Assembly: GCA_903953815.1 (NCBI GenBank)
Contig: CAJBLA010000061.1
Coordinates: 1 to 32,030, forward strand
Reading direction: 5' to 3'
Length of the DNA: 32,030 nucleotides
DNA from: an uncultured Bacteroidota bacterium
Lineage (GTDB): Bacteria > Bacteroidota > Bacteroidia > Chitinophagales > Chitinophagaceae
Part shown: piece after piece, positions 655 through 26,776 of the stretch
Layout of the letters: every line of letters begins with the position of its first letter
Position numbering within the stretch: position 1 is the stretch's first letter
Program-made: the position numbers and the translations under genes
The notes under the pieces: generated by a model
Database searches by the model: none
What the model saw: the letters and a program-made list of their open reading frames with translations, nothing else
Told to the model about the DNA's origin: nothing

Positions 655-1536
655 TTAGTCATGTATAACCATATCATATAAATGGTGGATTAGCCCATCC
701 GCTAGTCCTATTTTCGGTACATGAATTTCTGAAACTGCTGCCCACTTGCATATTGCGTTATAAATAGTTAATGCAGGTACAATAACTTCAGCCCGATCTT
801 CTTTAATCGTGTATTTTTTCATTCTTTCATCTATAGCGAGCGGCTCCATTTCCTTATAAATATCTTTCAAAGTTTCATAGGATATTGATTTGCCTGCTTT
901 TGCTCCGCTAATTGAAAATAGTTTATTGATATTACCTCCTGATCCAATCCCAATGATATTTTCGTATTTTTTTGAAAGGTCCTTTAAGGTCTCCTTCATT
1001 TCATCCCAAGTTTCGTCCTTGACCTTTTTTGTAAGAATACGAACAGTGCCAATATTAAATGATTTTTGCAGAATTATATTGGATTTGTGATATAAAGTAA
1101 GCTCGGTACTTCCACCACCTACATCAATGTATAAATAACTCTTATCGTTATCTAATAATTCTGCAATATGGTTTTCGTAAATTATTTCTGCTTCTAATTC
1201 ACCAGTGATTACCTCAATCTCAATACTGGTTTCAGATTTTATTTCTTTTATTATTTCTTTGGCATTTTCAGCATCACGCATGGCACTTGTTGCACAAGCC
1301 ATATAGTGATCAACTTCGTATACTTTCATTAAGTTGTTAAAAGCTTTGATGGTATTAATCAGCATCTTCTTTTTTTGTCCACCAATATGCCCTTTTTCAA
1401 AAACGTCAAACCCTAATCGAACTGGGATTCTTAAAAGATTCAATTTATTAAATTCTGTGGCTTTCCCTTTTTTTATTACTTCACAAATGAGTAATCTGAC
1501 CGCGTTACTACCAATATCTATTGCTGCAAGTATCAA
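655..1536 (-). CDS. ppx: Exopolyphosphatase / guanosine pentaphosphatase family (Ppx/GppA), short form
   Basis: The 293-residue protein has the actin-like ATPase fold of Ppx/GppA enzymes, which release phosphate from the ends of polyphosphate or hydrolyse pppGpp. Visible motifs are DIGSNAVRLLI at residues 7-17 (first phosphate loop), GELEAEIIY near 110 containing the probable catalytic Glu, DVGGGSTEL near 139 (second phosphate loop) and GIGSGGNINKL near 196. It is much shorter than E. coli Ppx (about 510 residues) and keeps only the two N-terminal domains, as many Bacteroidota and GppA-like proteins do. The ATG at 1536 lies 6 bases after the ppk1 stop, so the two are surely cotranscribed as a synthesis/degradation pair. 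Whether it prefers polyphosphate or pppGpp is not decided by the sequence. Confidence 0.88.
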   Translation of the reverse strand: MILAAIDIGSNAVRLLICEVIKKGKATEFNKLNLLRIPVRLGFDVFEKGHIGGQKKKMLINTIKAFNNLMKVYEVDHYMACATSAMRDAENAKEIIKEIKSETSIEIEVITGELEAEIIYENHIAELLDNDKSYLYIDVGGGSTELTLYHKSNIILQKSFNIGTVRILTKKVKDETWDEMKETLKDLSKKYENIIGIGSGGNINKLFSISGAKAGKSISYETLKDIYKEMEPLAIDERMKKYTIKEDRAEVIVPALTIYNAICKWAAVSEIHVPKIGLADGLIHHLYDMVIHD

Positions 1537-1542
1537 AGTATT

Positions 1543-3606
1543 TTATTTTTTACCAATTAAGTAGTTGTAAGTAGCTACCTGTGATTTGCAATGTTTTTTA
1601 CCAACGGAAGATACATAATTATTGCCTAAATTTTCATCCAAAATTCTGGCTTTTTGATTGTCTTTCAATTGAACATTGATGATCTCAACCAATTCTTTTT
1701 TTAATTTTACATCTAAAATAGGTGCAGCAACTTCAATTCGATGATCTAGATTACGTACCATCCAGTCGGCACTTGAAATGTATACTTTTTCATTTCCTTT
1801 ATTGTGAAAAATCATTACCCTGGCATGCTCTAAATATTGATCTACAATACTTATAGCGTTTAGTTTATTTTTCAATTTTTCACTTCCCTTTTTCAATGTC
1901 AATATTCCGCGAATAATTAAATGTACTTCCACACCCGCTTTGGTTGCTTTGTATAAATGATCTATGAGCGTGTGGTCACTGATTGAGTTTGATTTGATAA
2001 TTATTTTAGCACTCTTCCCTTGTTTTGCATGCTTAATTTCATTTTCAATTAATTGGATAATTGAATTGCGCATATTAATAGGCGAAATAAGTAAGTTCCT
2101 AGTTTTGCCAATAGGCTTATCTCCTAATTGCCAAGTTTCTAGATAAGTGAATACCTTGTTTACTTCCATTAATAAGGGTCTGGAAGCGGTTAATAAACAA
2201 TGATCAGCATAAATTTTAGCTGTTTTTTCATTTAAATTACCTGTGCTTATAAAGCCGTATTGTAGTAGCTTTTTTCCCACCCTTTTTTGTATCACACAAA
2301 TTTTAGCGTGCACTTTAACATTCGGGATACCCACTAAAACCTTTACACCTTCTTCTTCCATTAATGTTTTCCATTCCAAATTTGCTTCTTCGTCAAATCT
2401 TGCTTTTAATTCTAAAAACACGGTAACTTTTTTCCCATTACGCGCTGCGTTGATTAAAGCGTTAATCACTTTTGAATTGCTAGCCAAACGATAAGCAGTT
2501 ATTTTGATGGATTCAACTGCATCATCCATAGCGGCCTCCCTTAACATATCAATCACGGGATCAAAACTGTGGTAAGGAAAATGTAACAAAACATCTTTCT
2601 GTAATATCACTTCTGAAACCTGATTCTTATTTCTAAAGGATGGATGGATAAAAGGTTTAGGACGTTCCGCTTTTTCCACGAGAACATCTGGAAAATCCAT
2701 GAAATGTCTAAAATTATGAATATGCCCACCTGGTATAATACTGCTTTTCCGCGTTAAATGTAGCTTTTGAATTAAAAAATCAAGTAGTTCAGCATTCATC
2801 TCTTTATCGTATACAAAACGGACAGGCTTTCCTTTTCGTCTATTTTTAATTCCTTTAGAAATTTTTTCTACAAAATTTAATCCAACTTCTTGGTCTAAAT
2901 CAATTTCAGCATCCTTGGTTATTTTAAATACATGGGCTTCAAATTTATTAAACTTGAAGTGTGAAAATATAATGGGTAAATTATACTTCACAATATCTTC
3001 TAATAAAATGATTGATTTTGTAGCACCTGTAGATGGCAAAATAACGAATCTGCCTATGGATTTAGAGGGTATTTCAATTAATGAAAATTTTTCATGATAA
3101 GCATCCATCTTATTTTTCATCACAATTGCCAAATACAAACTCTTATCTCTTAAATAGGGAAGCTCTGGTAAATTTTCAATCATTAAAGGAATAATGTATG
3201 GGCGCACTACATTATCAAAATAGTCTCTAACAAATTCTTTTTGTACGGCATTTAATTTTCGTTCATTAATAATTAATACTTTTCTTTTTATTAATTCTTT
3301 ATTAATGTTACCCCAAATACGTGCAAATTCACTTTGTTGTTTTAAAACGACTCTTTGAATTTCATCGAGTATTAGTTGAGGTGATTCAAGAATATCTATA
3401 TTGGTATTCTTCTTTTTATCAACAAATTCAACCATTCTTTTTAAGGTGGCTACCCGTACCCTGAAAAATTCGTCTAAATTATTTGAAAAAATACCTAAAA
3501 AGCGGATTCTATCCTTTAAGGTCACTGTTGGATCATTGGCTTCCTGTAAAACCCTTGCGTTAAAGCTTAGCCAGCTAATATCTCTAGGAATAAACTCTTG
3601 CTTCAT
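1543..3606 (-). CDS. ppk1: Polyphosphate kinase 1
   Basis: PPK1 reversibly transfers the ATP gamma phosphate to inorganic polyphosphate. At 687 residues it is full length (E. coli 688). The N-terminal domain opens with FIPRDISWLSFNARVLQEA. The phospholipase D-like catalytic core contains ITAYRLASNSKVINAL near 369-384, LELKARFDEEANLEW near 398-412 and VKVHAKICVI near 430-439. His433 in that last motif matches the autophosphorylated histidine of E. coli (His435). EHARVMIFHNKG near 593-604 supplies the second histidine (His594, E. coli His592). The ATG at 3606 follows a consensus promoter at 3615-3645. ppx follows 6 bases downstream. A Pho-box-like repeat lies about 80-100 bases upstream but points the other way. 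Confidence 0.96.
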   Translation of the reverse strand: MKQEFIPRDISWLSFNARVLQEANDPTVTLKDRIRFLGIFSNNLDEFFRVRVATLKRMVEFVDKKKNTNIDILESPQLILDEIQRVVLKQQSEFARIWGNINKELIKRKVLIINERKLNAVQKEFVRDYFDNVVRPYIIPLMIENLPELPYLRDKSLYLAIVMKNKMDAYHEKFSLIEIPSKSIGRFVILPSTGATKSIILLEDIVKYNLPIIFSHFKFNKFEAHVFKITKDAEIDLDQEVGLNFVEKISKGIKNRRKGKPVRFVYDKEMNAELLDFLIQKLHLTRKSSIIPGGHIHNFRHFMDFPDVLVEKAERPKPFIHPSFRNKNQVSEVILQKDVLLHFPYHSFDPVIDMLREAAMDDAVESIKITAYRLASNSKVINALINAARNGKKVTVFLELKARFDEEANLEWKTLMEEEGVKVLVGIPNVKVHAKICVIQKRVGKKLLQYGFISTGNLNEKTAKIYADHCLLTASRPLLMEVNKVFTYLETWQLGDKPIGKTRNLLISPINMRNSIIQLIENEIKHAKQGKSAKIIIKSNSISDHTLIDHLYKATKAGVEVHLIIRGILTLKKGSEKLKNKLNAISIVDQYLEHARVMIFHNKGNEKVYISSADWMVRNLDHRIEVAAPILDVKLKKELVEIINVQLKDNQKARILDENLGNNYVSSVGKKHCKSQVATYNYLIGKK

Positions 3607-3614
3607 ATGGTATA

Positions 3615-3645
3615 CAAATTTATAGTGCGAATTTAGTTAATTCAA
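3615..3645 (-). promoter_or_regulatory. Bacteroidota-type promoter of ppk1-ppx
   Basis: Read on the minus strand, TAAATTTG at 3622-3615 matches the -7 consensus TAnnTTTG exactly. A TTG at 3645-3643 lies 20 bases upstream, a plausible -33 element. The -7 box ends only 8 bases before the ppk1 ATG, so the transcript would have almost no leader. Confidence 0.5.
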
Positions 3646-3674
3646 GATTAAGTAATATTCTGTTCACTATTTCT

Positions 3675-3703
3675 TAATACTATGGTAACATGTCGGAAAC
3701 ATT
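3675..3703 (+). promoter_or_regulatory. Putative Pho box (PhoB-type direct repeats)
   Basis: TAACATG (3686-3692) and AAACATT (3697-3703) are separated by TCGG, a 7+4 arrangement with an 11-bp period as in the E. coli Pho box. A weaker unit TAATACT at 3675-3681 is in the same phase, with spacer ATGG. A near-identical arrangement with the same spacing lies before the TonB receptor (23954-23982). The repeats read on the plus strand and end 41 bases before the metallophosphoesterase ATG, so control of that gene is more likely than of ppk1. That PhoB binds here is inference. Confidence 0.45.
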
Positions 3704-3744
3704 AAAGTTACAGCGTATTGCGTTATTTACATAAAATACAACCC

Positions 3745-4584
3745 ATGGACAAGCGACCAATGGAAATATGTATCGTAAGTGACCTGCATCTAGGCACATT
3801 TGGATGTCAAGCTAAGGAAGTACTTAATTATTTAAAAAGTATAAAACCTAAAACTTTGATTTTGAATGGGGACATTATTGACATTTGGCAATTCAATAAG
3901 CGTTATTTCCCTAAAAGTCATATGGCGGTGATTAAACAAATATTTAGTATGGCGAGTAAAGATACAAAAGTGATATATATCACCGGTAATCATGATGAAG
4001 CTTTACGAAAATATGCCGACTTTGAGATGGGTAATATTCAATTGACTGATAAAATTGTTTTTGAAATTAATGGAGAAAAGAATTGGGTTTTTCATGGTGA
4101 TGTTTTTGATCGAACAACTAAGGGAAGCGCTAAGCTATTAGCAAAATTGGGTGGGTATGGTTATGATTTATTAATACTTATCAATAGTCTATTAAACTGG
4201 AGTTTAAAAATTATGGGTAAGGAGAAAATGAGTTTAAGTAAGAGTGTTAAGAACGGGGTAAAAAAAGCGGTATCCTGGATCAATAATTTTGAACAAACAG
4301 CAGCTGAATTGGCCATTGAGAACAATTACCAATATGTTATTTGCGGACATATTCATCAGCCACAACAACGTGTCGTTACCACTGATAAGGGATCTGTTAC
4401 TTATTTAAATAGCGGCGATTGGATTGAAAATTTAACATCTTTAGAATATTTCGATAATGCTTGGCGCTTATACCAGTATGATCCGAAACAATTTGAAGAA
4501 ACTAATAAAAAAAGTAAAATCATACAACTACAGGAGGAACTAAGTGTGATTACGCAGGAAGTTGCCTTTCAGGTATCTATGTAA
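3745..4584 (+). CDS. PlcP-like calcineurin-type metallophosphoesterase (LpxH/UDP-diacylglucosamine hydrolase superfamily)
   Basis: This 279-residue protein (ATG 3745) has the complete metallophosphoesterase set: SDLHLGT (Asp13, His15), NGDIID (Asp43), GNHDE (Asn82, His83), FHGD (His118) and CGHIH (His202, His204). Beyond the catalytic residues it shows traits I recall from PlcP, the phospholipase C of Sinorhizobium that degrades phospholipids under phosphate starvation: GTFGCQA after the first motif, VKKAVSWINNFE near 172-183 and GDWIENLTSLEY near 224-235. LpxH-type members lack most of these. No signal peptide is seen, so it acts on the cytoplasmic side. A glycosyltransferase follows after 10 bases and a Pho-box-like repeat precedes it. 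An in-frame TTG at 3718 would add nine residues, but ATG is preferred. The alternative is a role in lipid A synthesis. Confidence 0.75.
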   Translation: MDKRPMEICIVSDLHLGTFGCQAKEVLNYLKSIKPKTLILNGDIIDIWQFNKRYFPKSHMAVIKQIFSMASKDTKVIYITGNHDEALRKYADFEMGNIQLTDKIVFEINGEKNWVFHGDVFDRTTKGSAKLLAKLGGYGYDLLILINSLLNWSLKIMGKEKMSLSKSVKNGVKKAVSWINNFEQTAAELAIENNYQYVICGHIHQPQQRVVTTDKGSVTYLNSGDWIENLTSLEYFDNAWRLYQYDPKQFEETNKKSKIIQLQEELSVITQEVAFQVSM

Positions 4585-4594
4585 AGTTGATCCT

Positions 4595-5593
4595 ATGAAA
4601 ATATTTTACGCAATTCAAGGGACGGGAAATGGCCATTTAAGCAGGGCTGAGCAATTGTATCCTTATTTACAAAAATACGGGGAGGTAGACTTTTTTTTAA
4701 GCGGATCAAATGCTCAATTAAATACGCGTATACCAATTAAGTACAAAAGTCAAGGACTTAGTTTACATTATAAACATACCGGTGGGTTGGATTATACTAA
4801 TATCGCAAAATCCATTTCTTTTAAATTATATAAAGATGCTAAGGCTTTGCCTATTGATAATTATGATCTAATTATCAATGACTTTGAATTTATAACCTCA
4901 CTTGCTTGTGGCATTAAACGAAAAAAAAGTATTCAATTTGGTCACCAAGCAAGTTTTCAGAGTAAATTAACGCCAAGGGCTAAAACAATCAATCCCATTG
5001 GGAAATTAGTTTTAGAAAATTTTGTCAGAAGTTCCTCTTTCCTTGGTCTTCATTTTGAATCCTATGATGATCAAATTTATAACCCAATCATTAAGGATGA
5101 AATTATAAGTGCAAATAAGGTGAATAAAGGCCACATAACAGTGTATTTGCCACAATATACGATTGCCTATATTACTCCTTTTTTACATGCACAATCACCA
5201 TTTCATTTTGAGGTATTTACAAAGGAAGTAACGGAGGTGACTCATTCAAAAAACATTACCTTTTCCCCAATTAGTGGTGCTACATTTACCAATAGCTTAA
5301 TTAGCTGCCATGCCATTATTACTGCTGGCGGCTTTGAAACACCTGCGGAAGCAATGTATTTGAATAAAAAGTTGTTAAGTATTCCCATCTTACATCATTT
5401 TGAACAAGAATGTAATGCGGCTGCGATGAAAAAGATGGGGGTAACGGTATTAAAAAAATTAGACCAACATTTTGCAGAACATTTCAAAATATGGATCAAT
5501 CAAGATAATTCCGTTAAAATTTCCTTAACCCATTCTACGAAGGATATTGTGGAGGTACTGATGAACAAAACCTTAGCAAAAGATTATAAATAG
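4595..5593 (+). CDS. GT-B fold glycosyltransferase (MurG/UGT-like)
   Basis: This is a 332-residue protein starting at ATG 4595, 10 bases after the preceding stop. The N terminus MKIFYAIQGTGNGHLSRAEQ is the glycine-rich loop of GT-B enzymes resembling MurG and diacylglycerol glucosyltransferases. ITAGGFETPAEAMYLNKKLL near residues 249-268, followed by an H-FEQ-NA segment, is the typical nucleotide-sugar binding site of the C-terminal domain (compare GGxxTxxEA in MurG). No membrane segment is obvious. The tight coupling to a PlcP-like phosphoesterase suggests it glycosylates the diacylglycerol that enzyme would release, giving glycolipids. That substrate is inference; family resemblance alone supports only transfer of a sugar from a nucleotide donor. 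Confidence 0.75.
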   Translation: MKIFYAIQGTGNGHLSRAEQLYPYLQKYGEVDFFLSGSNAQLNTRIPIKYKSQGLSLHYKHTGGLDYTNIAKSISFKLYKDAKALPIDNYDLIINDFEFITSLACGIKRKKSIQFGHQASFQSKLTPRAKTINPIGKLVLENFVRSSSFLGLHFESYDDQIYNPIIKDEIISANKVNKGHITVYLPQYTIAYITPFLHAQSPFHFEVFTKEVTEVTHSKNITFSPISGATFTNSLISCHAIITAGGFETPAEAMYLNKKLLSIPILHHFEQECNAAAMKKMGVTVLKKLDQHFAEHFKIWINQDNSVKISLTHSTKDIVEVLMNKTLAKDYK

Positions 5594-5641: not shown

Positions 5642-5986
5642 ATGTATTTAATACAAGATCAAAAAAAAGAAACAATTGCCTATATCGAAAACATGATGAT
5701 TTTAGATACCAACCATGAGCATGTAATTGGTATTTTAATTGGAGATTGTTTTTTCGGCCATAATAAAAAAGTGGTAGGAAAGATTATCAATCAAACAGTT
5801 TACTTATTAAATGGAGAAATTGCAGGTAAGGTTGAATTAAATCAAGAATATAAAAATACCAGTATCAAAAAAAGTTTAATGGTGGAAGCCTGGGATTTTT
5901 TAATGAATATCAATGAACATACTGGCGCATGGATTGAAATAACAAAAAAATGGAGTAAAACTCCATTTTTAAGTCATTTAAATTAA
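5642..5986 (+). CDS. Small beta-rich protein of unknown function (4-fold beta flower-like)
   Basis: The 114-residue product has no signal peptide, membrane segment or catalytic motif. Short repeated strands can be seen: IAYIENMMILDTNHEHVIG, then CFFGHNKKVVGKI, then VYLLNGEIAGKVE. Each has a hydrophobic pair followed by an asparagine-containing turn and a G-K/I step. This pattern recalls the '4-fold beta flower' proteins common in Bacteroidota, a family without known function. It lies 48 bases after the glycosyltransferase in the same direction and may share its transcript. It converges with the next gene only 8 bases later. The assignment to that fold is by eye and uncertain; that the gene is real is supported by codon use and spacing. 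Confidence 0.6.
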   Translation: MYLIQDQKKETIAYIENMMILDTNHEHVIGILIGDCFFGHNKKVVGKIINQTVYLLNGEIAGKVELNQEYKNTSIKKSLMVEAWDFLMNINEHTGAWIEITKKWSKTPFLSHLN

Positions 5987-17185: not shown

Positions 17186-19729
17186 ATGCAACAAAGTCAT
17201 ATTATTGAATCTAATGATTCAATTCATGGGATTATTGAACAACTTAAACATTATCTCCCTTCACAATCTCCTTTAAAGGATTTTGTGCATCATAATTCAT
17301 TACATGCATTTCAAGACAAGTCCTTTTTCGAGGGCATCTTTAATGCAAGAGATATTTTTGGGTATAACGTAACTTTAAATATTGATGAGTTTAGAAATTT
17401 ATTTCGACTTGGTAGAATTAGCCACGAAGTGTTGAATAAAATAATTATTGAAAAAAAGGGAACTGATCAACTACAATACTGGTTAAATAAATTGCTCAAC
17501 GAGGAATTAATTTACACTAAGGATCAGCAAGTAGGTAAAATTAGGAAACTTTGGAAAAGCGAATATAAAATTGATTTAGACAATCGTGTACATCCTGTTT
17601 TGTTTAGAATTATTTGCGCATATTTAGACCAAGGCATTTCTATTTCTAATTTTCCAGATAACGGTACTGGATTAATCAATAATCTCAGATTTATTGAAAA
17701 AAATAGTTATAGTAGTTTTTTTAAATCAAAACGTGCTAAAGCCTTGTTGTTGAACGATGATATATGCATTGAAGATGTTTTGAAATTACTAGTAGGGGAA
17801 AACATTCCCAATAAAATGTATTTATTTGATCAACAATTTGCACACAGAGGTTGGTCGGGAATGGTTTCGGCAATTGAGGATAATCCCCAAACCTTATTAG
17901 ATACAAAAAATGTTTCCTTGTATGACTTTATCCATTTAGAATTACTGCTTGAAGTTGATGCTTTAGATCAGCAATTTGGGGAATCTTGGTTGCCATTAAG
18001 TTCAAAGTATCGCCATCATGGGAGTAGTGATTTTTATGCGAAACCAATTGCTATGGAGGATGAAGTACTAATTTTATTTCAAGAGGCTTTCGAATGGAGT
18101 TACTATGATAAGGTTTTATCTTCATTTAAACATAAGTATTCTACGATTGAAACAAATATTGACCTTCCAAATTTTCAAGCTGTATTTTGTATAGATGAAA
18201 GGGAATGTTCATTGCGAAGACATCTTGAGAATGTAGCATCACCATGTGTAACATACGGAGCGCCTGGCTTTTTTGGCGTAGAATTTTATTTCCAACCACA
18301 AAATGGAAAATTTTATGAAAAATTATGTCCAGCACCTGTAACGCCTAAATATTTAATTAAGGAATCTGAAAGCGCTCAAGAAAAATCTCACACCATATTT
18401 TATAGTAAACTTGCGCATTCATTTGTAGGTGGATTTTTATTAAGTTTAACAGCAGGAGTGGTTTCTGTTTTTGAATTAATACGTAATCTTTTTTCACCCA
18501 AAATGACACCTGCAATTTCCGATGCATTTGCGCATGTGGCATTAAATTCAAAGTTGACTGTTGAAAACAAAAATTTGAATGATACAGAAAATGGTTTGCA
18601 AATTGGTTTTACAATAGAAGAAATGGCCAAACGTGTCGAAGGGCAACTTAGAAATATTGGGTTGATTGACCATTTTTCTTCTATAATTTATATAGTAGCA
18701 CATGGTTCTAGTAGTGCCAATAATCCCCATCATGGAGCACATGATTGTGGCGCTTGCAGTGGTAGGCCAGGTTCAGTGAATGCACGTGTATTTGCTATTA
18801 TGGCAAACCACGTTGCGGTAAGAAAAATTTTAGCACATAATGGTATTCATATTCCAAAAGACACTTTGTTTGTAGGCGCTTTACATGATACAGCGGCCGA
18901 TCAGATTCAATATTTTGATACGCTTCTTTTACCAACCAACTTATTGGAAAAACATGTTATTTATACCCAACAATTTGAAAACGCGCTTGATTTAAATGCG
19001 AAAGAGCGTTCAAGACGCTTTGCATCTATCAATACCAAAGCAGATATTAAACATGTAAGAAAACAAATTTTGAACAGATCGGTTTCACTCTTTGAACCTA
19101 GACCAGAACTTGGACATGGATCAAATGCGTTATGCATTATTGGTCGTAGAGAGATTTCAAAAAATATATTTTTGGACCGTAGGGCATTTTTAAATTCCTA
19201 TGATTACAAAACCGATCCTACTGGTGATTTGTTGGTCAATGTAATTAGCCCCATTGGCCCTGTTTGCGGAGGCATTAACCTAGAATATTATTTTTCAAGA
19301 ATTGACAACCAAAAACTTGGGGCAGGTACCAAATTACCCCATAATGTAATGGGATTGATTGGTGTTTCGAATAGTAGTGATGGAGATTTAAGACCAGGTT
19401 TGCCATTACAAATGATTGAAGTGCATGATCCAATCCGTCTTTTAGTAGTGGTAGAACAATTCCCTGAAATTGTGTTAAAAGTACTAAAGTCATCAGAAAA
19501 TATTTTTAATTGGTACGCGAAACAATGGATTCATTTAGTGGTGATTAACCCGCAAGATGGGAATTTATATCAATTCAAAAACGACGAATTTATTTTATAC
19601 AAAACAGTGGCAGACAAAACTGAAAAGGTGGAAAACTTTCATGAATTATTTGAAAATGCCACTGAAATGTCTGCATTTACTATTGAAAATGCCACTACTG
19701 AAAACTTACCAATATATTATTTAAACTAA
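17186..19729 (+). CDS. dabA: DabA, inorganic-carbon transporter catalytic subunit (DUF2309/UPF0753)
   Basis: DabA is a membrane-associated protein with a carbonic-anhydrase-like zinc site that, with DabB, is thought to trap CO2 as bicarbonate using the ion gradient. The protein has 847 residues, full length. AVFCIDERECSLRRHLE supplies Cys335 and Asp337. HGSSSANNPHHGAHDCGACSG supplies His506 and Cys521. These match the four zinc-site residues reported for Halothiobacillus DabA (Cys351, Asp353, His524, Cys539), including the 2- and 15-residue spacings, so the active site appears intact. The N-terminal YLPSQSPLKDFVHHNSLHAF is also typical. dabB begins 4 bases after the stop. The ATG at 17186 follows a hairpin with U-tract, suggesting regulated read-through. 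Confidence 0.95.
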   Translation: MQQSHIIESNDSIHGIIEQLKHYLPSQSPLKDFVHHNSLHAFQDKSFFEGIFNARDIFGYNVTLNIDEFRNLFRLGRISHEVLNKIIIEKKGTDQLQYWLNKLLNEELIYTKDQQVGKIRKLWKSEYKIDLDNRVHPVLFRIICAYLDQGISISNFPDNGTGLINNLRFIEKNSYSSFFKSKRAKALLLNDDICIEDVLKLLVGENIPNKMYLFDQQFAHRGWSGMVSAIEDNPQTLLDTKNVSLYDFIHLELLLEVDALDQQFGESWLPLSSKYRHHGSSDFYAKPIAMEDEVLILFQEAFEWSYYDKVLSSFKHKYSTIETNIDLPNFQAVFCIDERECSLRRHLENVASPCVTYGAPGFFGVEFYFQPQNGKFYEKLCPAPVTPKYLIKESESAQEKSHTIFYSKLAHSFVGGFLLSLTAGVVSVFELIRNLFSPKMTPAISDAFAHVALNSKLTVENKNLNDTENGLQIGFTIEEMAKRVEGQLRNIGLIDHFSSIIYIVAHGSSSANNPHHGAHDCGACSGRPGSVNARVFAIMANHVAVRKILAHNGIHIPKDTLFVGALHDTAADQIQYFDTLLLPTNLLEKHVIYTQQFENALDLNAKERSRRFASINTKADIKHVRKQILNRSVSLFEPRPELGHGSNALCIIGRREISKNIFLDRRAFLNSYDYKTDPTGDLLVNVISPIGPVCGGINLEYYFSRIDNQKLGAGTKLPHNVMGLIGVSNSSDGDLRPGLPLQMIEVHDPIRLLVVVEQFPEIVLKVLKSSENIFNWYAKQWIHLVVINPQDGNLYQFKNDEFILYKTVADKTEKVENFHELFENATEMSAFTIENATTENLPIYYLN

Positions 19730-19733
19730 AACA

Positions 19734-21590
19734 ATGGAACAGTATTTAAAATTTTTTATATTTATTCCTTTTGTAGGGTACTTATTAAGTTTATTGATAA
19801 AACAAAAACAGGAAAAACTAATCGCTAACATAGCCGTTGCAACCAGCTTTTTGCAATTAGTGTTATTAATCGTTTTTTCAGTCAATTGGTTTATAGTGGG
19901 AGCTAATGTGCTCGACATTAAGCAAGTAACACTTTTAACAACACCTGAATTTGACTTTTTTATCGATTTTTATTTTGATAAAATTTCGGTTGTTTTTTTA
20001 TTTGTAGGTAGCTTATTAACGCTGCTTGTTGCCGTGTTTAGTAAATCATATATTCATCGTGAACCAGGGTTTAAAAGGTACTTTAACAATGTTCATTTGT
20101 TCTTTTTGGGGTATAGCATTGTAGTCATTGCCGGAAATTTTGAAACTCTATTTTTAGGCTGGGAAATGATTGGCATTACTTCATTCTTACTCATTTCATT
20201 TTACAAGAATAGGTATCTCCCAGTAAAGAATGCCATGAAGGTAGTTTCCCTGTACAGATTAGGTGATGTGTTTTTAATTTTAGCAATGTGGCTAAGTCAT
20301 CATTTATGGCATGGGAACATTTCATTTTTTCAAATTTTGGATTTTAATGCAACTGCAGCTTTAATACATAAGCATCAAGTTTTAGCCACATTCATTGGCG
20401 TCTCAATTGTTATGGGCGCCTCCATTAAATCGGCAATGTACCCATTTTCGTCATGGGTAGCCAGGGCCATGGAAGGCCCATCAAGTTCAAGTGCTATTTT
20501 TTATGGGTCTTTATCGATTCACTTAGGTGTCTTCCTTTTGCTAAGAACATTTCCTTTTTGGCAACATATATTTATTATAAAAGTACTAATAGCGGTTTTA
20601 GGTGTAGCTACTAGCTTAATATGTAATTCTATAGCTAAATCTCAACCCACAGTAAAAACACAAATAGCATATGCTTCAATAACACAAATTGGTATTATAT
20701 TTATTGAAATTGCACTTGGTTTTCACAATTTTGCGCTTTTCCATTTTATAGGGAATGCATTTTTTAGAACGTATCAAATTTTAGTTTCACCTTCGGTTTT
20801 ACATTATTTAATTCACAACCAATTATTTTCAGGCATTACTAAAAAAGTTACAATACCAAGCAAATTAAGTAATACATTTTATATGTTATCTATCAAAGAG
20901 TATAACATGGATGCAACTTTATTTAAATATTTTTGGCAACCTTTTAAATGGGTAAGCAACAAGCTGCTCATTTTAAATAACAAATATTTTTATATTATAA
21001 TTTCGATTTTATTTTTACTAGGCATCTATTTTGATATAAACACTTTTCAATTTCATCCCATTTTATTAAAGTCATTTGTTTATTTATTTTCATTCATTTC
21101 TTTAATGTTAATTTTACTTTCATTTAATGAACGTGCATCTAGTATCAGTGCATGGCTGAATGTAGTATATGGGCATCTATTTATAATGATGTGTGTTTCA
21201 ATTAATAGTCATATCGCGTTTTCTTATTTATTACTTTATTTATTAAGTATTTGTTTTTTTGGTTTTATAGGATTTCAAGCTATTCGAAATTTACAGAAAC
21301 AAGCTGCTTTAATAACGCTTGAACAATTTCACGGAAATGGTCAATTGCATCCCAAATTATCCATTTTATTTTTAGTTGCTTGCCTGGGTTTAATCGGATT
21401 TCCTATTTCACCTTTATACATTGGGATTGATTTACTTCTCACTTATATTGAGCGTGATCAATATATCATTATGATTTTTGTTGCATTGTGTTTAATTTTT
21501 ATAGAAATTTCGCTTTTACGTATTTATACCCGACTATTTTGTGGTATACCCTTATATTCAAACGAACCCATTTCATTTAAATCCGCATAA
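19734..21590 (+). CDS. dabB: DabB, proton-conducting NuoL/MrpA-like membrane subunit
   Basis: This is a 618-residue polytopic inner membrane protein of the complex I/Mrp antiporter family, the ion-channel partner of DabA. FLGWEMIGITSFLLISFYKNR places Glu144 in the position of NuoL Glu144. GASIKSAMYPFSSWVARAMEGPSSSSA at about 228-254 contains the channel Lys232 and the characteristic AMEGP loop. LYRLGDVFLI near 173-182 matches the family RxGD segment. About 14 or more hydrophobic segments are visible. It lies 4 bases behind dabA and 47 bases before the SulP gene. No other complex I or Mrp subunits are nearby, which separates it from respiratory or Mrp homologues. Confidence 0.92.
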   Translation: MEQYLKFFIFIPFVGYLLSLLIKQKQEKLIANIAVATSFLQLVLLIVFSVNWFIVGANVLDIKQVTLLTTPEFDFFIDFYFDKISVVFLFVGSLLTLLVAVFSKSYIHREPGFKRYFNNVHLFFLGYSIVVIAGNFETLFLGWEMIGITSFLLISFYKNRYLPVKNAMKVVSLYRLGDVFLILAMWLSHHLWHGNISFFQILDFNATAALIHKHQVLATFIGVSIVMGASIKSAMYPFSSWVARAMEGPSSSSAIFYGSLSIHLGVFLLLRTFPFWQHIFIIKVLIAVLGVATSLICNSIAKSQPTVKTQIAYASITQIGIIFIEIALGFHNFALFHFIGNAFFRTYQILVSPSVLHYLIHNQLFSGITKKVTIPSKLSNTFYMLSIKEYNMDATLFKYFWQPFKWVSNKLLILNNKYFYIIISILFLLGIYFDINTFQFHPILLKSFVYLFSFISLMLILLSFNERASSISAWLNVVYGHLFIMMCVSINSHIAFSYLLLYLLSICFFGFIGFQAIRNLQKQAALITLEQFHGNGQLHPKLSILFLVACLGLIGFPISPLYIGIDLLLTYIERDQYIIMIFVALCLIFIEISLLRIYTRLFCGIPLYSNEPISFKSA

Positions 21591-21637
21591 TAGCAATAAT
21601 ATAAAATTAACTTTTTAACTTTAAACTAAACTACTGT

Positions 21638-23140
21638 ATGAACCATTCCGCTTCTTTTTCAAAAAAATACATCAAAGATGATTTGCCTGCTGGTCTGGTT
21701 GTTTTTTTAGTTGCGTTGCCTTTGTGTTTGGGTATTGCTTTAGCATCCGGGGCTCCTTTATTTGCCGGCATTATTTCCGGTATTATTGGAGGAATTATTG
21801 TAGCTTTTATAAGTGGATCCGCATTAAGTGTAACTGGTCCTGCAGCTGGCCTAACAGTGATTGTTTTAAATGGCATCACAGAACTTGGCAGTTATGAAAC
21901 ATTTTTATTTGCTGTTGTACTTGCTGGAATTATACAAGTTGTTCTTGGATTTTTAAAGGCAGGGGTAATTGGCTATTATTTTCCTTCGAGTGTAATTAAA
22001 GGTATGTTAGCGGCTATTGGTATTATTTTGATTTTAAAACAAGCGCCAGTAGCTATCGGGTATATGAAAGACAGCGGGATGCAATATCAAATTGGCTCTA
22101 TTATAATAGCACTTGTTTCCATTGCTATTATTTTGACCTGGGATCTACCTGCCTTAAAAAAGTATGCATTTTTCAAATTTATTCCGGGTGCGCTTATTGC
22201 TGTTATTGTTGGGGTTGTTTTAAACAAGGCTTTTTATTTGTACCAACCTGATTGGGTTTTAGATGCTTCACAACTGGTTAAATTACCTAAAGCTGCTAAT
22301 GTAAACGAATTTGTAAACCAATTTACATTACCCGATTTCACGCAATTTGCTAATTATAAAGTGTATGTGTTGGCAGTAACAATTGCAATTATTGCTAGTT
22401 TGGAATCATTATTAAGCACTGAAGCTGCAGATAAATTGGATCCATTTAAAAGAATTACTCCCACCAATCAGGAGCTAAAGGCGCAAGGAATAGGGAATAT
22501 TATTTCTGGTTTAATTGGTGGCTTGCCCATGACTGCAGTAATTGTTCGTACTTCTGCAAATGTTAATGCTGGTGGAAAAACCAAATTATCTGCAATTGTA
22601 CATGGCCTATTATTATTTGTTAGTGTTGCCTTTTTTGCCGCTTATTTGAATCAAATTCCATTGCCTTGTTTGGCAGCTGTATTATTAGTGGTAGGTTATA
22701 AGTTGGCTAAAGTTTCCTTATTTAAAGAGATGTATAAGTTGGGTTGGGAGCAATTTGTACCTTTTATTATCACCATAGTTGCAATACAGTTTAGTGATTT
22801 ATTAAAAGGGATTTCATTAGGTATGCTGGTAGCCATATTTTATATTTTACGAACAAATTATCGCAGAGATTATAAATTTCATCAAGATCCAAAAGTTGAT
22901 GGCGGTTTAATAACTATTACGCTAAGTGAACATGTTACTTTTATAAATAAGGGAAGTATTGCAAATAAATTAACGCATGTTGAAAATGATTCTCATGTTA
23001 TAATTGAAGGTAAAAATGCACATTTCATAGACTTAGATGTATTAGAAATATTGTATGATTTTAAAGAAAATGCAAAGCAAAAAAACATACAAGTTGAATT
23101 CAAAAATATTCCAGAAAGAATTAAGGTAAGTGGGCACTAG
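21638..23140 (+). CDS. SulP-family anion transporter, probable bicarbonate transporter
   Basis: This 500-residue membrane protein begins YIKDDLPAGLVVFLVALPLCLGIALASGAP, the SulP entry signature, with SVTGPAAGLTVIVLNGI near 66-82 forming the central substrate site. About 10-12 hydrophobic segments are followed by a short cytoplasmic STAS-like domain (about 415-495, with ITITLSEHVTFINKGSI and HFIDLDVLEILYDF). SulP members carry sulfate, bicarbonate and other anions. Direct linkage to a beta carbonic anhydrase and to dabAB argues for bicarbonate, as for cyanobacterial BicA. This is inference from context. It is 47 bases after dabB and 64 bases before the carbonic anhydrase. Confidence 0.85.
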   Translation: MNHSASFSKKYIKDDLPAGLVVFLVALPLCLGIALASGAPLFAGIISGIIGGIIVAFISGSALSVTGPAAGLTVIVLNGITELGSYETFLFAVVLAGIIQVVLGFLKAGVIGYYFPSSVIKGMLAAIGIILILKQAPVAIGYMKDSGMQYQIGSIIIALVSIAIILTWDLPALKKYAFFKFIPGALIAVIVGVVLNKAFYLYQPDWVLDASQLVKLPKAANVNEFVNQFTLPDFTQFANYKVYVLAVTIAIIASLESLLSTEAADKLDPFKRITPTNQELKAQGIGNIISGLIGGLPMTAVIVRTSANVNAGGKTKLSAIVHGLLLFVSVAFFAAYLNQIPLPCLAAVLLVVGYKLAKVSLFKEMYKLGWEQFVPFIITIVAIQFSDLLKGISLGMLVAIFYILRTNYRRDYKFHQDPKVDGGLITITLSEHVTFINKGSIANKLTHVENDSHVIIEGKNAHFIDLDVLEILYDFKENAKQKNIQVEFKNIPERIKVSGH

Positions 23141-23176
23141 TTATATGCATGCTCGTAACAAAAGAGGTGCTTTGTT

Positions 23177-23188
23177 GTAATTAATTAC
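23177..23188. promoter_or_regulatory. 12-bp palindrome before the carbonic anhydrase gene
   Basis: GTAATTAATTAC is perfectly self-complementary and lies 16 bases before the ATG at 23205, in the 64-base gap after sulP. It may be an operator, but short AT palindromes are common in such DNA. Confidence 0.2.
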
Positions 23189-23204
23189 TAAGTAAAAAAA
23201 TAGT

Positions 23205-23837
23205 ATGAAAAAATCGTATAAAAAATTATTGATTAATAATAAAAAATGGGTTTCTGAACAATTGGAGCTAGATCCAAATTATTTCGAAAATTTAGCGCAT
23301 GGACAAACACCTGAATATCTCTGGATAGGCTGTTCTGATTCTCGTGTCCCTGCAAATACCATAACAGGCACTGATCCTGGCGAAATGTTTGTACATCGTA
23401 ATATAGCTAATATGGTTGTACATAGCGATATGAATATGTTGAGTGTTTTGTCCTATGCAGTGGAAGTATTAAAAGTGAAACACATTATAGTATGTGGACA
23501 TTATGGCTGTGGCGGTGTATTGGCAGCTATGGGAAATAAGCAGATTGGATTAATTGATAACTGGCTAAGACATATTAAGGACGTATATAGGTATCATCAC
23601 AAAGAATTAGATGCAATCGAAAATATGGAGCAAAGGGCGAGGCGTTTTGTGGAAGTGAATGTGGTGGAACAAGTTCATGATTTAGGCAAAACAAGTATTG
23701 TGCAAAATGCATGGAAAAATAAACAACCCTTACATTTACATGGATGGGTATATGATATTAATGATGGAATCATTAAAGACCTAGATGTTACTTTTACATG
23801 TACCAAGGATTTGCACAAGGTTTACCACTTAGATTAA
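23205..23837 (+). CDS. can: Beta-class carbonic anhydrase
   Basis: The enzyme interconverts CO2 and bicarbonate with a cytoplasmic zinc site. In 210 residues it has [10 protein letters not shown] (zinc ligand Cys43; Asp45/Arg47 catalytic dyad) and [14 protein letters not shown] (His99, Cys102). VHRNIANMV near 64-72 is also a family mark. The sequence ends with [12 protein letters not shown] after the usual [11 protein letters not shown] segment. ATG 23205 gives a normal N terminus. As the last gene of the dab-sulP cluster it would equilibrate imported bicarbonate with CO2, or convert CO2 for carboxylases. With DabA's own zinc site, the cluster holds two carbonic-anhydrase-like centres. Confidence 0.95.
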
Positions 23838-23887: not shown

Positions 23888-23953
23888 GACAATTAATTGA
23901 TTTTCAATTAGTTAGAAATTTTCTGAACAAATTTAAAATAGTTAATATTAAGT

Positions 23954-23982
23954 TCACGTTGCGTTAACATTCCGGTAACATT
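23954..23982 (+). promoter_or_regulatory. Putative Pho box before the TonB-dependent receptor gene
   Basis: Two identical TAACATT units (23965-23971 and 23976-23982) are separated by CCGG, and a third unit TCACGTT (23954-23960; 5 of 7 bases) sits one 11-bp period upstream with spacer GCGT. The 7+4 arrangement is that of PhoB sites. A -7-like AATATTTG at 23990-23997 follows 7 bases later, so the repeats occupy the -33 region as expected for an activator. Binding by a PhoB homologue is inference. Confidence 0.5.
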
Positions 23983-24016
23983 GAAATGTAATATTTGCTG
24001 AATAAATAATTACATC

Positions 24017-26776
24017 GTGAAAAGGTTATTACTCTTAATTTGTTTCGTAGGATTTGCAATTATATCTCAAGCGCAAAAAGCTAAAATCGCAGGTAAAATT
24101 ACCAGTGTAAAAAATGAAGCTTTAATTGGAGTTTCGTTAACCTTAAAATCTGACAAAACACAGATTGCTAAAACGGATGTAGAAGGTAGATACAGCTTTA
24201 CAATAGATGTAAATAAAAAATATACACTTACATTGTCCTATGTGGGGTATGAATCAAAAACAATCGCTGATATTTCAGCATCAAACGCAGGAGAAGAGGT
24301 TTTATTAGATATTTTACTTGAAGAATCAGGAGCTAGATTAACAGATGTTACTGTAAGTGCAACCAAAACAAGCAATAAAGGTGCTACGGACAATGCATTA
24401 ATTGCATTTCAAAAAAATACCAACACAGTTGCTTCCGTTATTTCTGCTGAGTCCATCAAAAGAAGTCCAGATCGTAATACTGCCGAAATTTTAAAAAGAA
24501 CACCAGGTGCTTCTATCCAAGAAGGGAAGTACATCATTGTAAGAGGTTTGGCGGATCGTTATAACCAAGCCATGTTAAATGGTATATTATTAACAAGTAC
24601 AGAAGCAGATCGCAAAACATTCTCTTTTGATTTGTTTCCTTCTCAAATTATTGACAATATCATTATTAATAAAGCTTTTGTTCCTGAATTGCCAGGTGAG
24701 TGGGCGGGTGGATTGATTCAAGTAAATACAAAAGATATTCCAACAAAAAATTTCTTTAATGTTCAATTAGGAACAAGTGTAAATAGCTTAATCACTGGAA
24801 AAGACTTTTTTAAAGACAAGGGTGGCAAAACAGATTGGTTAGGATTAGATGATGGATCAAGGGCTTTACCTGCTGGCTATACAACTAAATCAAATTTTGA
24901 TACTTCAAGCCTTGCTGCTAAAACTGCATTAGGAAAAACAATGTCTAATAACTGGTCGCCAGTTTTAACTACAGCAAAACCAAACATGAGCGTACAAATG
25001 AATGGCGGCTTTTCTGGTACACTATGGGGTAAAAAAATTGGGGGAATGATTGGTGTGAGTTATGCTAATTCTTACCGTTTTCAAGATAATACTAATAATC
25101 AAAACGGAATTACAGACGAAAAATTTAATCCAATCACTGAATTAAGGGATAACAAATATTTTCAGGATATTAATATGGGCGCCCTTGCTGGTTTATCCAT
25201 ATTCTTAAATCCATTAAATAAAATTAGTTATAAAGCAATTGTAAACGTAAAAACTTCTAATGTTTATAACGCTAGGGTAGGTAAGGACTATACAAGACAG
25301 GATTTAGTAAAAGGAAATGAATTTGTATTTGGACAAAACATATTTTTCACCAATCAATTAAACGGAGAACATAGTTTGTCTCAAAAATTAAAATTTAATT
25401 GGTATGGTGCATTTAATATTTTAGATGCATATACACCTGACCAAAGAAGAATAATGTATACTAAAGATATAACTGGGTCGGATCCTTATGTATTAAATAT
25501 TTCAAACACTTTATCGCAACAATCAGGTAGCAGAATATTTCAAACCTTATCTGACTATATATATACTGGCGGAGGCGACTTAACTTTGAAAGTAAAGCAA
25601 CAAACAATTAAGGCGGGTTACATGATTCAAATAAAGGATCGTTTGTACGACGCACAATTATTTGCCATCACCATGCCAGTTGATAATCCGGCGTTAAGAT
25701 TATTGCCTGCAGAATCTGCATTTGTTTCTACTAATTTTGGAACTGGTACTGATAATAAATTTGCGTTTAACTCCATTCAAAATAGAAATTTTAGATACTT
25801 AGCAAATACTATTTTAAATGCCGGCTTTGTACAATTCGATAATAAATTATCCGATGGTTTAAGAATAGTATGGGGTTTAAGGGTAGAGAATTTTGACCAA
25901 TTAGTAGGGTCTGTTAAAAAGTGGGATCCAAGACATACTTACTCAAAGGTTACGGATTACTTACCTGGTGTAAATGCAACGATTAAATTATCTCAAAAGG
26001 CTAATTTAAGAATTACAGGATCACAAACGGTAATTAGACCAGAATTAAGAGAGCTTTCAGCCCTTAATATTTATGACTTTGAATTAAACGCATCTGTTTC
26101 AGGTAATCCTTCCTTAAAAAGAACAAAGATTACGAATACTGATTTAAGATATGAATTATACCCTGCTGCAGGCGAAATGTTTACTGTCGGTGTTTTTTAT
26201 AAAAACTTTGAAAATCCAATTGAAAGTATTTTCCAAGAAGGTGCTGGCGGATCAAGTTTATTTTCTTTCCAAAATGTTTCTAAAGCAACTGCTTTTGGTT
26301 TTGAGATTGAAGGACGCAAAAAATTATCTAAACGTTTTACATTACAAGCGAATGGTTCTTATATTAATTCAAAAATTGATGATGCTGCATTGAATATTAG
26401 CAGGTCACTACAAGGTCAATCACCTTATTTGATCAACACAGGTATTTTATATGATGTTGTTGAGAAAGGTTTCAATACCACTTTATTATTTAATCAAGTA
26501 GGTAAGCGTATCTATTTAGTGGGAGATATTCAAGCGGGTGCTGGTACACCAGACGTGTATGAAAATCCAAGAGCTTTGATTGACTTTCAGATTAGTAAGA
26601 AATTTGCAAAAAATAAAGCAGAAATTAAATTAACTATTTCCGATTTATTGAATCAACGACAAATTTTCTATCAAAATAACAACTCTAATACCGATTATAA
26701 TACAACAACAGATGCAATTAGATTGTCAAGAAAATACGGTACCACCTATGGTGTAACAATTAACTATTCCTTATAA
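24017..26776 (+). CDS. TonB-dependent outer membrane receptor with carboxypeptidase-regulatory-like domain
   Basis: This 919-residue protein starts at GTG 24017, the only start that keeps the signal peptide (MKRLLLLICFVGFAIISQAQ). Residues about 22-110 form a carboxypeptidase-D-regulatory-like domain (KIAGKITSVKNEALIGVSL, then LSYVGYESK). A plug domain follows at about 130-240, with NTAEILKRTPGASIQEGKYI and VRGLADRYNQAMLNGILL. The rest is a beta barrel ending in an aromatic strand (YGVTINYSL). Such receptors import scarce ligands with energy from TonB/ExbBD. It is not SusC-like in its partner: a beta-helix lipoprotein follows after 32 bases instead of SusD. The upstream repeats suggest induction by phosphate limitation, so the cargo may be a phosphorus compound. 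That is inference. Confidence 0.9.
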   Translation: MKRLLLLICFVGFAIISQAQKAKIAGKITSVKNEALIGVSLTLKSDKTQIAKTDVEGRYSFTIDVNKKYTLTLSYVGYESKTIADISASNAGEEVLLDILLEESGARLTDVTVSATKTSNKGATDNALIAFQKNTNTVASVISAESIKRSPDRNTAEILKRTPGASIQEGKYIIVRGLADRYNQAMLNGILLTSTEADRKTFSFDLFPSQIIDNIIINKAFVPELPGEWAGGLIQVNTKDIPTKNFFNVQLGTSVNSLITGKDFFKDKGGKTDWLGLDDGSRALPAGYTTKSNFDTSSLAAKTALGKTMSNNWSPVLTTAKPNMSVQMNGGFSGTLWGKKIGGMIGVSYANSYRFQDNTNNQNGITDEKFNPITELRDNKYFQDINMGALAGLSIFLNPLNKISYKAIVNVKTSNVYNARVGKDYTRQDLVKGNEFVFGQNIFFTNQLNGEHSLSQKLKFNWYGAFNILDAYTPDQRRIMYTKDITGSDPYVLNISNTLSQQSGSRIFQTLSDYIYTGGGDLTLKVKQQTIKAGYMIQIKDRLYDAQLFAITMPVDNPALRLLPAESAFVSTNFGTGTDNKFAFNSIQNRNFRYLANTILNAGFVQFDNKLSDGLRIVWGLRVENFDQLVGSVKKWDPRHTYSKVTDYLPGVNATIKLSQKANLRITGSQTVIRPELRELSALNIYDFELNASVSGNPSLKRTKITNTDLRYELYPAAGEMFTVGVFYKNFENPIESIFQEGAGGSSLFSFQNVSKATAFGFEIEGRKKLSKRFTLQANGSYINSKIDDAALNISRSLQGQSPYLINTGILYDVVEKGFNTTLLFNQVGKRIYLVGDIQAGAGTPDVYENPRALIDFQISKKFAKNKAEIKLTISDLLNQRQIFYQNNNSNTDYNTTTDAIRLSRKYGTTYGVTINYSL

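Follow-up and report, generated by a model that had tools for sequence, protein, structure and literature searches.

How a member of the Chitinophagaceae might remodel its membrane lipids when phosphate is scarce is the question raised by two adjacent genes on a 32,030-nt stretch of DNA from an uncultured Bacteroidota bacterium (assembly GCA_903953815.1, contig CAJBLA010000061.1). The whole stretch, hereafter the window, makes up contig C61 of a genome of 2.62 Mb, and the named close relatives of its proteins, where the sources give names, belong to Sediminibacterium, Parasediminibacterium or simply Chitinophagaceae/Chitinophagia. The first gene (3745-4584, plus strand) encodes a plcP-like metallophosphoesterase (MPE) of 279 amino acids, and the second (4595-5593, plus strand) encodes a glycosyltransferase (GT). 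We consider it rather likely that the two genes form an operon for remodelling lipids under phosphate starvation, in which Bacteroidota use a version of the PlcP-Agt system with a GT from another family. This interpretation had been put forward in the original prediction from the same DNA and is supported here, with the lipid chemistry, the expression and the acceptor of the GT being what we infer.

The proposed mechanism has three steps. When phosphate is low, a regulator presumably of the PhoB/PhoP type would bind four 11-bp repeats, which are observed beside the promoter, and turn the operon on. The PlcP-type MPE would then strip the phosphate head group from membrane phospholipids and leave diacylglycerol, as the nearest characterised relative suggests. 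Finally, the operon arrangement and the fold of the second enzyme suggest that the GT would add a sugar to diacylglycerol and so give a phosphate-free glycolipid.

Identity of the two enzymes

The MPE matches PF12850 (59.3 bits) and PF00149 (50.6 bits) above cut-off, and its calcineurin-type motifs SDLHLG, GDIID, GNHDE, HGD and GHIH, which we take to be metal ligands, are intact. This calcineurin-like fold family and these motifs are common to LpxH; E. coli LpxH has GNRD where the MPE has GNHD, and the LpxH-type protein of the same genome has GNHD too. In databases, the named close relatives of the MPE are called LpxH or UDP-2,3-diacylglucosamine diphosphatase, save one 'hypothetical protein', and on such names the MPE would simply be one more LpxH acting in the lipid A pathway. 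The profile scores point elsewhere: against two curated LpxH models the MPE reached 54.5 bits (cut-off 134) and 44.1 bits (cut-off 190.35), far below both. The corresponding scores were 55.1 and 44.5 for the PlcP-type protein of Pseudomonas aeruginosa, 364.3 and 388.9 for E. coli LpxH, and 93.9 and 82.0, likewise below the cut-offs, for the LpxH-type protein of the same genome. The scores of the MPE match those of the P. aeruginosa protein and lie below those of its own LpxH-type protein, which favours a PlcP-type identity. The MPE and the P. aeruginosa protein are 39% identical over 245 columns.

A tree of 59 proteins gave the same picture. Its 13 LpxH-type rows (E. coli, the own genome and 11 from relatives, these 11 drawn from weak matches to the MPE and two of them short) were split from the 46 others at 100/100, and nine proteobacterial PlcP-type rows, one of them the PA3219-type row of P. 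aeruginosa, formed one group (99/98) inside the 46, on the same side as the MPE. The branches of E. coli LpxH and Pannonibacter are long, which leaves their exact position unsure, and the characterised PlcP enzymes of Sinorhizobium meliloti, Phaeobacter and Pelagibacter stand outside this set of 59. A separate LpxH-type gene, 26% identical to the MPE, is found elsewhere in the genome (G000:C43:12127-12858). The tree, the sub-cut-off LpxH scores and this separate gene led us to reject a second LpxH as the identity of the MPE, and the corresponding reading of the locus is highly improbable. Three PlcP-specific segments named in the original prediction are all present: the first, GTFGCQA, and the two others match GTRDCQA, VKTAVNFISDFE and GDWVESCTALIEH in the P. 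aeruginosa row. The first two have no counterpart in the rows of the own LpxH-type protein or of E. coli LpxH, and at the third the own LpxH-type row has only GDWI in common. Judged from its sequence, the MPE is therefore a PlcP-type enzyme, not an LpxH; the outcome named earlier as refuting, a position in the LpxH clade of a genome lacking any further lpxH, did not occur.

The P. aeruginosa record used here has the gene order plcP-GT-adenylate cyclase, and we take it to be PA3219-PA3218, partly on the basis of the third gene. In the published work, in which the PlcP and GT loci are named PA3219-PA3218, a plcP mutant grown at low phosphate had no glucosyl-diacylglycerol and less glucuronosyl-diacylglycerol (PMC8528852).

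The second gene had been described as a GT-B glycosyltransferase 10 bases behind the MPE, and this spacing is exact (MPE stop at 4582-4584, GT start codon ATG at 4595). Its predicted structure has a GT-B fold (mean predicted local distance difference test score, 91.2), and its sequence matches PF13528 (97 bits, cut-off 25), which makes it MJ1255/VC2487-like; the score against TIGR00661 was 131.2 bits, below the cut-off of 195.9. PF13528 was the sole domain found, PF13439, PF13692 and PF00534 being unmatched, whereas the P. aeruginosa partner carries the GT4 domain set, and BLASTP of the window GT against the P. aeruginosa GT4 Agt1 type found no significant similarity. Going by its domain content, the GT is a member of a family other than that of GT4 Agt1, which agrees with the earlier expectation of a glycosyltransferase of another type. 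A literature search for PF13528, TIGR00661, MJ1255 and VC2487 listed no study evidently on these glycosyltransferases.

The lipid substrate may also be of another kind. The pair could serve a phosphate-controlled remodelling of sphingolipids or other Bacteroidota lipids, in which the MPE would remove the head group of a phospho-sphingolipid and the GT would make glycosyl-ceramides or amino- or sulfonolipid derivatives. We regard this as unlikely, given that glycosyl-diacylglycerols are what the closest PlcP-GT pathway characterised so far produces (PMC8528852), and glycosylation of diacylglycerol is the reading that we prefer.

Conservation of the pair was surveyed in the 30 nearest loci, that is, the window and the best-scoring matches L003-L031. 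The GT stands behind plcP in 30/30 of them, the window counted and some loci clipped by contig ends. Among 60 relatives, an MPE match at E 1e-5 was found in 57, a count that takes in weak LpxH-type matches, and a GT match in 38. Across the class, 183 of 346 Bacteroidia genomes drawn had an MPE match at E 1e-25 or better; among the 29 best-matching further loci (L055-L083), 25 had a strong GT match (at least 150 bits) immediately downstream of plcP, L066 had a weak one, and L064, L067 and L073 had none. The pair of plcP and a PF13528 GT is present in Parabacteroides and Aureibacter records too.

PlcP-like genes were also seen in other settings. A pSymB stretch of S. meliloti Ak57 has one with no glycosyltransferase annotated in the part viewed; we take the studied S. 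meliloti plcP to be chromosomal, unlike this copy. In P. aeruginosa, a plcP-type gene is found in plasmid records as well, with a glycosyltransferase behind it in the one examined, and in Pannonibacter a PlcP-like gene is divergent from a gene annotated as ceramide glucosyltransferase.

An array of 11-bp units before plcP and before other operons

The original prediction placed a Pho-like repeat of 11-bp period at 3675-3703. The repeat is real and longer than this: its four units start at 3674, 3685, 3696 and 3707 (TTAATA, GTAACA, GAAACA, GTTACA) and span 3674-3717 on the plus strand, with weaker 11-bp units upstream, back to 3652. The automated repeat search of the window did not report it because the repeat is degenerate. 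Taken alone, the window region is weak on a lag measure, 91 of 1000 shuffles being equally high, and the repeat is considered real because it is conserved across the upstream regions of the genus. Over 29 such loci, self-identity peaked at lags 11, 22 and 33 (0.385, 0.379 and 0.337), and all other lags from 3 to 32 gave 0.249-0.317. Four, sometimes six, 11-bp units are common to the plcP upstream regions of the genus, and the mean unit over 28 loci is approximately KTAAYAWT followed by three unspecified bases.

For comparison between loci, we scored TWAYA four times at period 11 (maximum 20). In the genus, all 28 loci whose upstream sequence was long enough scored at least 17, and 23 of them at least 18; L010, with 26 upstream bases only, was excluded. 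Control regions were the 150-base stretches ahead of the initial ATG in frames of at least 150 codons from other loci, spurious frames included, and only 1 of 198 scored at least 17. A block near the array, aligned in the genus upstream regions and placed by eye, contains a putative -7 element, TTATTTAC (3723-3730, plus strand), which lies downstream of the array and is close to TAnnTTTG, presumably the Bacteroidota consensus. The region before plcP has the features of a PhoB/PhoP box, namely tandem 11-bp direct repeats, a TTAACA-like core and an adjoining putative promoter.

The array stands in the 138-base interval (3607-3744) between plcP and a divergent ppk1 (polyphosphate kinase 1; 1543-3606, minus strand, identified by profile matches), behind which lies a ppx-like gene for an exopolyphosphatase-like protein (655-1536, minus strand; 218.8 bits, below the cut-off of 307). 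These two genes had been taken to strengthen the phosphorus theme, and their identity on the minus strand is confirmed. Their weight as support is reduced, since ppk1 is beside plcP in only 19/30 nearest loci; of the other 11, 10 show none within 1.0-1.5 kb of flank and at L010 the contig ends. The array is conserved also where no ppk1 is seen alongside, so it belongs to plcP and is unlikely to be a control site of ppk1. In the betaproteobacterium Mitsuaria, a PlcP-like gene adjoins ppk1 and a Ppx/GppA gene.

Only one other site in the window reached 18, a second array of four 11-bp units at 23942-23985 (plus strand; score 18). It precedes a TonB-dependent receptor gene (24017-26776, plus strand; PF14905, PF00593, PF07715, PF13715), which is followed by a putative outer-membrane lipoprotein gene (26809-28317, plus strand), whose product has, by eye, a lipoprotein and beta-helix look and had no match in Pfam or NCBIfam. 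We examined 30 receptor loci, with three genus matches in G004, G011 and G013 lying outside the set; all 21 genus loci that hold the N-terminus (L176-L195, L197; L203 excluded) scored at least 18, as compared with at least 17 in 4/7 non-genus loci (L199 excluded). The receptor is thus a probable member of the same regulon as plcP. It has pf07715, pf13715 and pf14905 in common with Fjoh_0545 of Flavobacterium johnsoniae, the likeness being one of domains and of the gene order Fjoh_0545-0546. In that species, transcripts of Fjoh_0545 and of the lipoprotein gene Fjoh_0546 rose in phosphate depletion, with fold changes of 8.02 and 9.91, which we read as log2 (PMC8115612). Parabacteroides and Hymenobacter also have TonB receptor-lipoprotein pairs, with no clear array before them (15, and 17 and 16, of 20), so such a pair alone is no proof of a phosphate link.

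Alkaline phosphatase (PF00245) was found in 2/14 genus genomes searched. Both genes follow, with overlapping ends, a phnO-like acetyltransferase gene (best NCBIfam match aminoalkylphosphonate N-acetyltransferase, 99.2 and 96.7, below the cut-off of 142), and in both genomes a perfect array (20/20) is immediately upstream of it. One genome, G015, has a phosphorus 'island' within about 15 kb of a single contig (L174, G015:C29:12000-29734): ppx-ppk1, MPE-GT, a purple-acid-phosphatase-like gene, a TonB receptor, a lipoprotein-like gene, a further phosphoesterase and phnO-phosphatase, with the array at three promoters, that before the TonB receptor scoring 18. Phosphate control gains independent support from these findings, because the same array precedes the phnO-phosphatase and TonB-lipoprotein operons and a Bacteroidota PhoP core, TTTAACA, has been published (PMC9603813). 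In that study of Riemerella, TTTAACA comprised the most conserved bases of the PhoP motif, PhoPR was up in phosphate starvation, and a TonB receptor promoter was among those tested with PhoP (PMC9603813). The earlier idea of a Pho-like box is well supported for the genus, though not for Bacteroidia in general.

Evidence against, regulator and significance

A number of points weigh against a phosphate-controlled glycolipid operon. With regard to the array, the TWAYA unit was derived from the regions first scored, so that independent testing comes from the promoters of the TonB and phosphatase operons; a score of at least 17 was reached in only 7/29 further Bacteroidia loci and in 16/79 loci of the Flavobacterium lineage (L215 excluded as too short); and the F. 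johnsoniae strain scored 14, as did Parabacteroides, where the plcP-GT pair is retained. L031, from another family, also scored 14, and same-family loci L055-L058 reached 17 in 3/4. With regard to the pair, a tblastn match to the window GT was found near plcP in 0/80 Flavobacterium-lineage loci, which speaks for that lineage only; the search of named genomes used a query alignment headed by L067, which itself lacks the GT, and these 80 loci are the best-matching among at least 572 relatives, in Flavobacterium and other genera taken as Flavobacteriaceae. The choice of the loci examined is biased, which, along with the undetected Fjoh_4577 protein described below, lowers confidence slightly. With regard to the chemistry, no PF13528 protein with an established acceptor emerged from the literature search, phosphate-starved Dokdonia made aminolipids, not glycolipids (PMC4796936), and the protein of Fjoh_4577 was undetected in the proteomes described (PMC8115612). 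The Riemerella PhoP motif was likened to that of ArcA, and the targets described were not mainly phosphate genes, with emphasis on oxygen-related ones (PMC9603813).

The candidate regulator adds to these points. Of the three OmpR-type regulators in the genome, the one at G000:C297, beside a PhoR-like kinase, is nearest to the PhoB models and has PhoB as its best NCBIfam match; however, it scored 206.5 bits, below the PhoB cut-off of 296.2, and no array was found before it. Both strands of 28 regulator loci, 90 kb in all, yielded three arrays. No sense-strand array of at least 17 preceded the DUF47-pit unit in any of 15 loci (150 bases), and 4/15 (L160, L161, L163 and L164) had opposite-strand arrays at 17-18; before PBP_like_2 genes, none of 24 loci had an array of at least 18.

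Given that Parabacteroides retains the pair without the array, phosphate may not control the pair in every lineage. Alternatively, the two genes could be an envelope pair without any phosphate link, with the MPE providing the lipid acceptor of a surface glycolipid made constitutively and the array serving another OmpR-type regulator. Tandem repeats are also bound by other OmpR-family regulators, and the pair without the array in Parabacteroides and in most further Bacteroidia loci examined, as well as the ArcA-like motif of Riemerella PhoP (PMC9603813), would fit this explanation. On the other hand, in each of the two genomes with an alkaline phosphatase the array precedes phnO-phosphatase, and it also precedes a TonB-lipoprotein operon resembling the phosphate-induced one of F. 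johnsoniae (PMC8115612), and we consider the envelope explanation quite unlikely. The array is typical of this genus and part of its kin, and on sequence grounds phosphate control through it is well supported within the genus but no further.

Further phosphate genes were surveyed in the genus. PhoU (PF01895) gave no match in any of 16 genomes and Porin_O_P none in 14; a DUF47/PhoU_div protein stands beside a Pit transporter. PF12849 matches were present in 16/16 genomes, and the one in the own genome adjoins genes that look, by eye, TPR-like and hisS-like rather than a pst operon. The own genome also has two genes for Pit-type phosphate transporters (G000:C33, G000:C115), as against one match in 12/13 other genus genomes searched, G033 having three, two of them partial; the doubling could be due to contamination.

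Within the window, a small Bflower_2-like open reading frame (5642-5986, plus strand; 30.4 bits, below the cut-off of 38) follows the GT. It was seen downstream of the GT in 17/18 close loci, the remaining one ending at a contig edge, and none was found in 12 further loci of the 30 nearest; it is possibly part of the plcP-GT unit. The region 17186-23837, with DabA (PF10070), a proton-antiporter-like subunit (DabB-like by position), a sulfate-permease-family transporter and carbonic anhydrase, is likely an inorganic-carbon uptake cluster.

PlcP in Flavobacteria is already known (PMC4796936, PMC8115612), which makes the present finding moderately surprising. Judging by titles and abstract openings, literature searches on plcP and glycolipids in Bacteroidota, the Bacteroidetes Pho box and Sediminibacterium phosphate turned up nothing on this pair, with subscription literature mostly uncovered. 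Within these searches two things are new, a PF13528 protein as the partner across Bacteroidia and a readable box that links the pair to phosphate genes. We would give roughly even weight to the broader view that Bacteroidota built their own PlcP operon with a PF13528 GT, a family with no tie to membrane glycolipids in the literature searched, and that in Sediminibacterium and its kin a four-to-six-unit Pho box also drives TonB and phosphatase operons, in a genus in which no PhoU was found. If this is true, about half of Bacteroidia genomes (183/346 sampled) hold a mislabelled gene of this type, another glycosyltransferase family joins lipid remodelling, and part of the phosphate regulon of the genus becomes predictable from sequence through a readable Pho box. 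The 0/16 result for PF01895 raises the question of phosphate sensing in the genus.

Comparison with known systems

P. aeruginosa PA3219-PA3218 and the marine and rhizobial PlcP-Agt systems resemble the window in that a GT-B glycosyltransferase comes directly after a PlcP-type enzyme and an array of the Pho-box type lies upstream of the two. They differ in the partner, which is a GT4 Agt1 there and a PF13528 protein in the window, and in the unit of the box, CTGTCAT (PMC8528852) as compared with approximately KTAAYAWT.

In the same phylum, plcP of Dokdonia is induced by phosphate starvation (PMC4796936), and F. johnsoniae has a homologue 59% identical to the window MPE over 252 columns, probably Fjoh_4577. 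The transcript of Fjoh_4577, termed 'PlcP', was strongly induced in phosphate depletion, with a fold change of 8.59, again read as log2 (PMC8115612). Fjoh_4577 is labelled an orphan, away from other predicted phosphorus genes, whereas plcP of the window is paired with a GT; the induced glycosyltransferase of F. johnsoniae, Fjoh_0541, is a pf04101 protein in the phoBR operon, whereas that of the window is a PF13528 protein in the plcP unit (PMC8115612).

With respect to the box, the PhoP box of Riemerella anatipestifer has a TTTAACA/TTAACA-like core like that of the window array (PMC9603813). Riemerella PhoP is a known binder, whereas the regulator of the window array is a candidate only, scoring below the PhoB cut-off. 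We also liken the array to the PhoP box of Bacillus subtilis, which we take to have the same TTAACA-like core, tandem units and 11-bp period.

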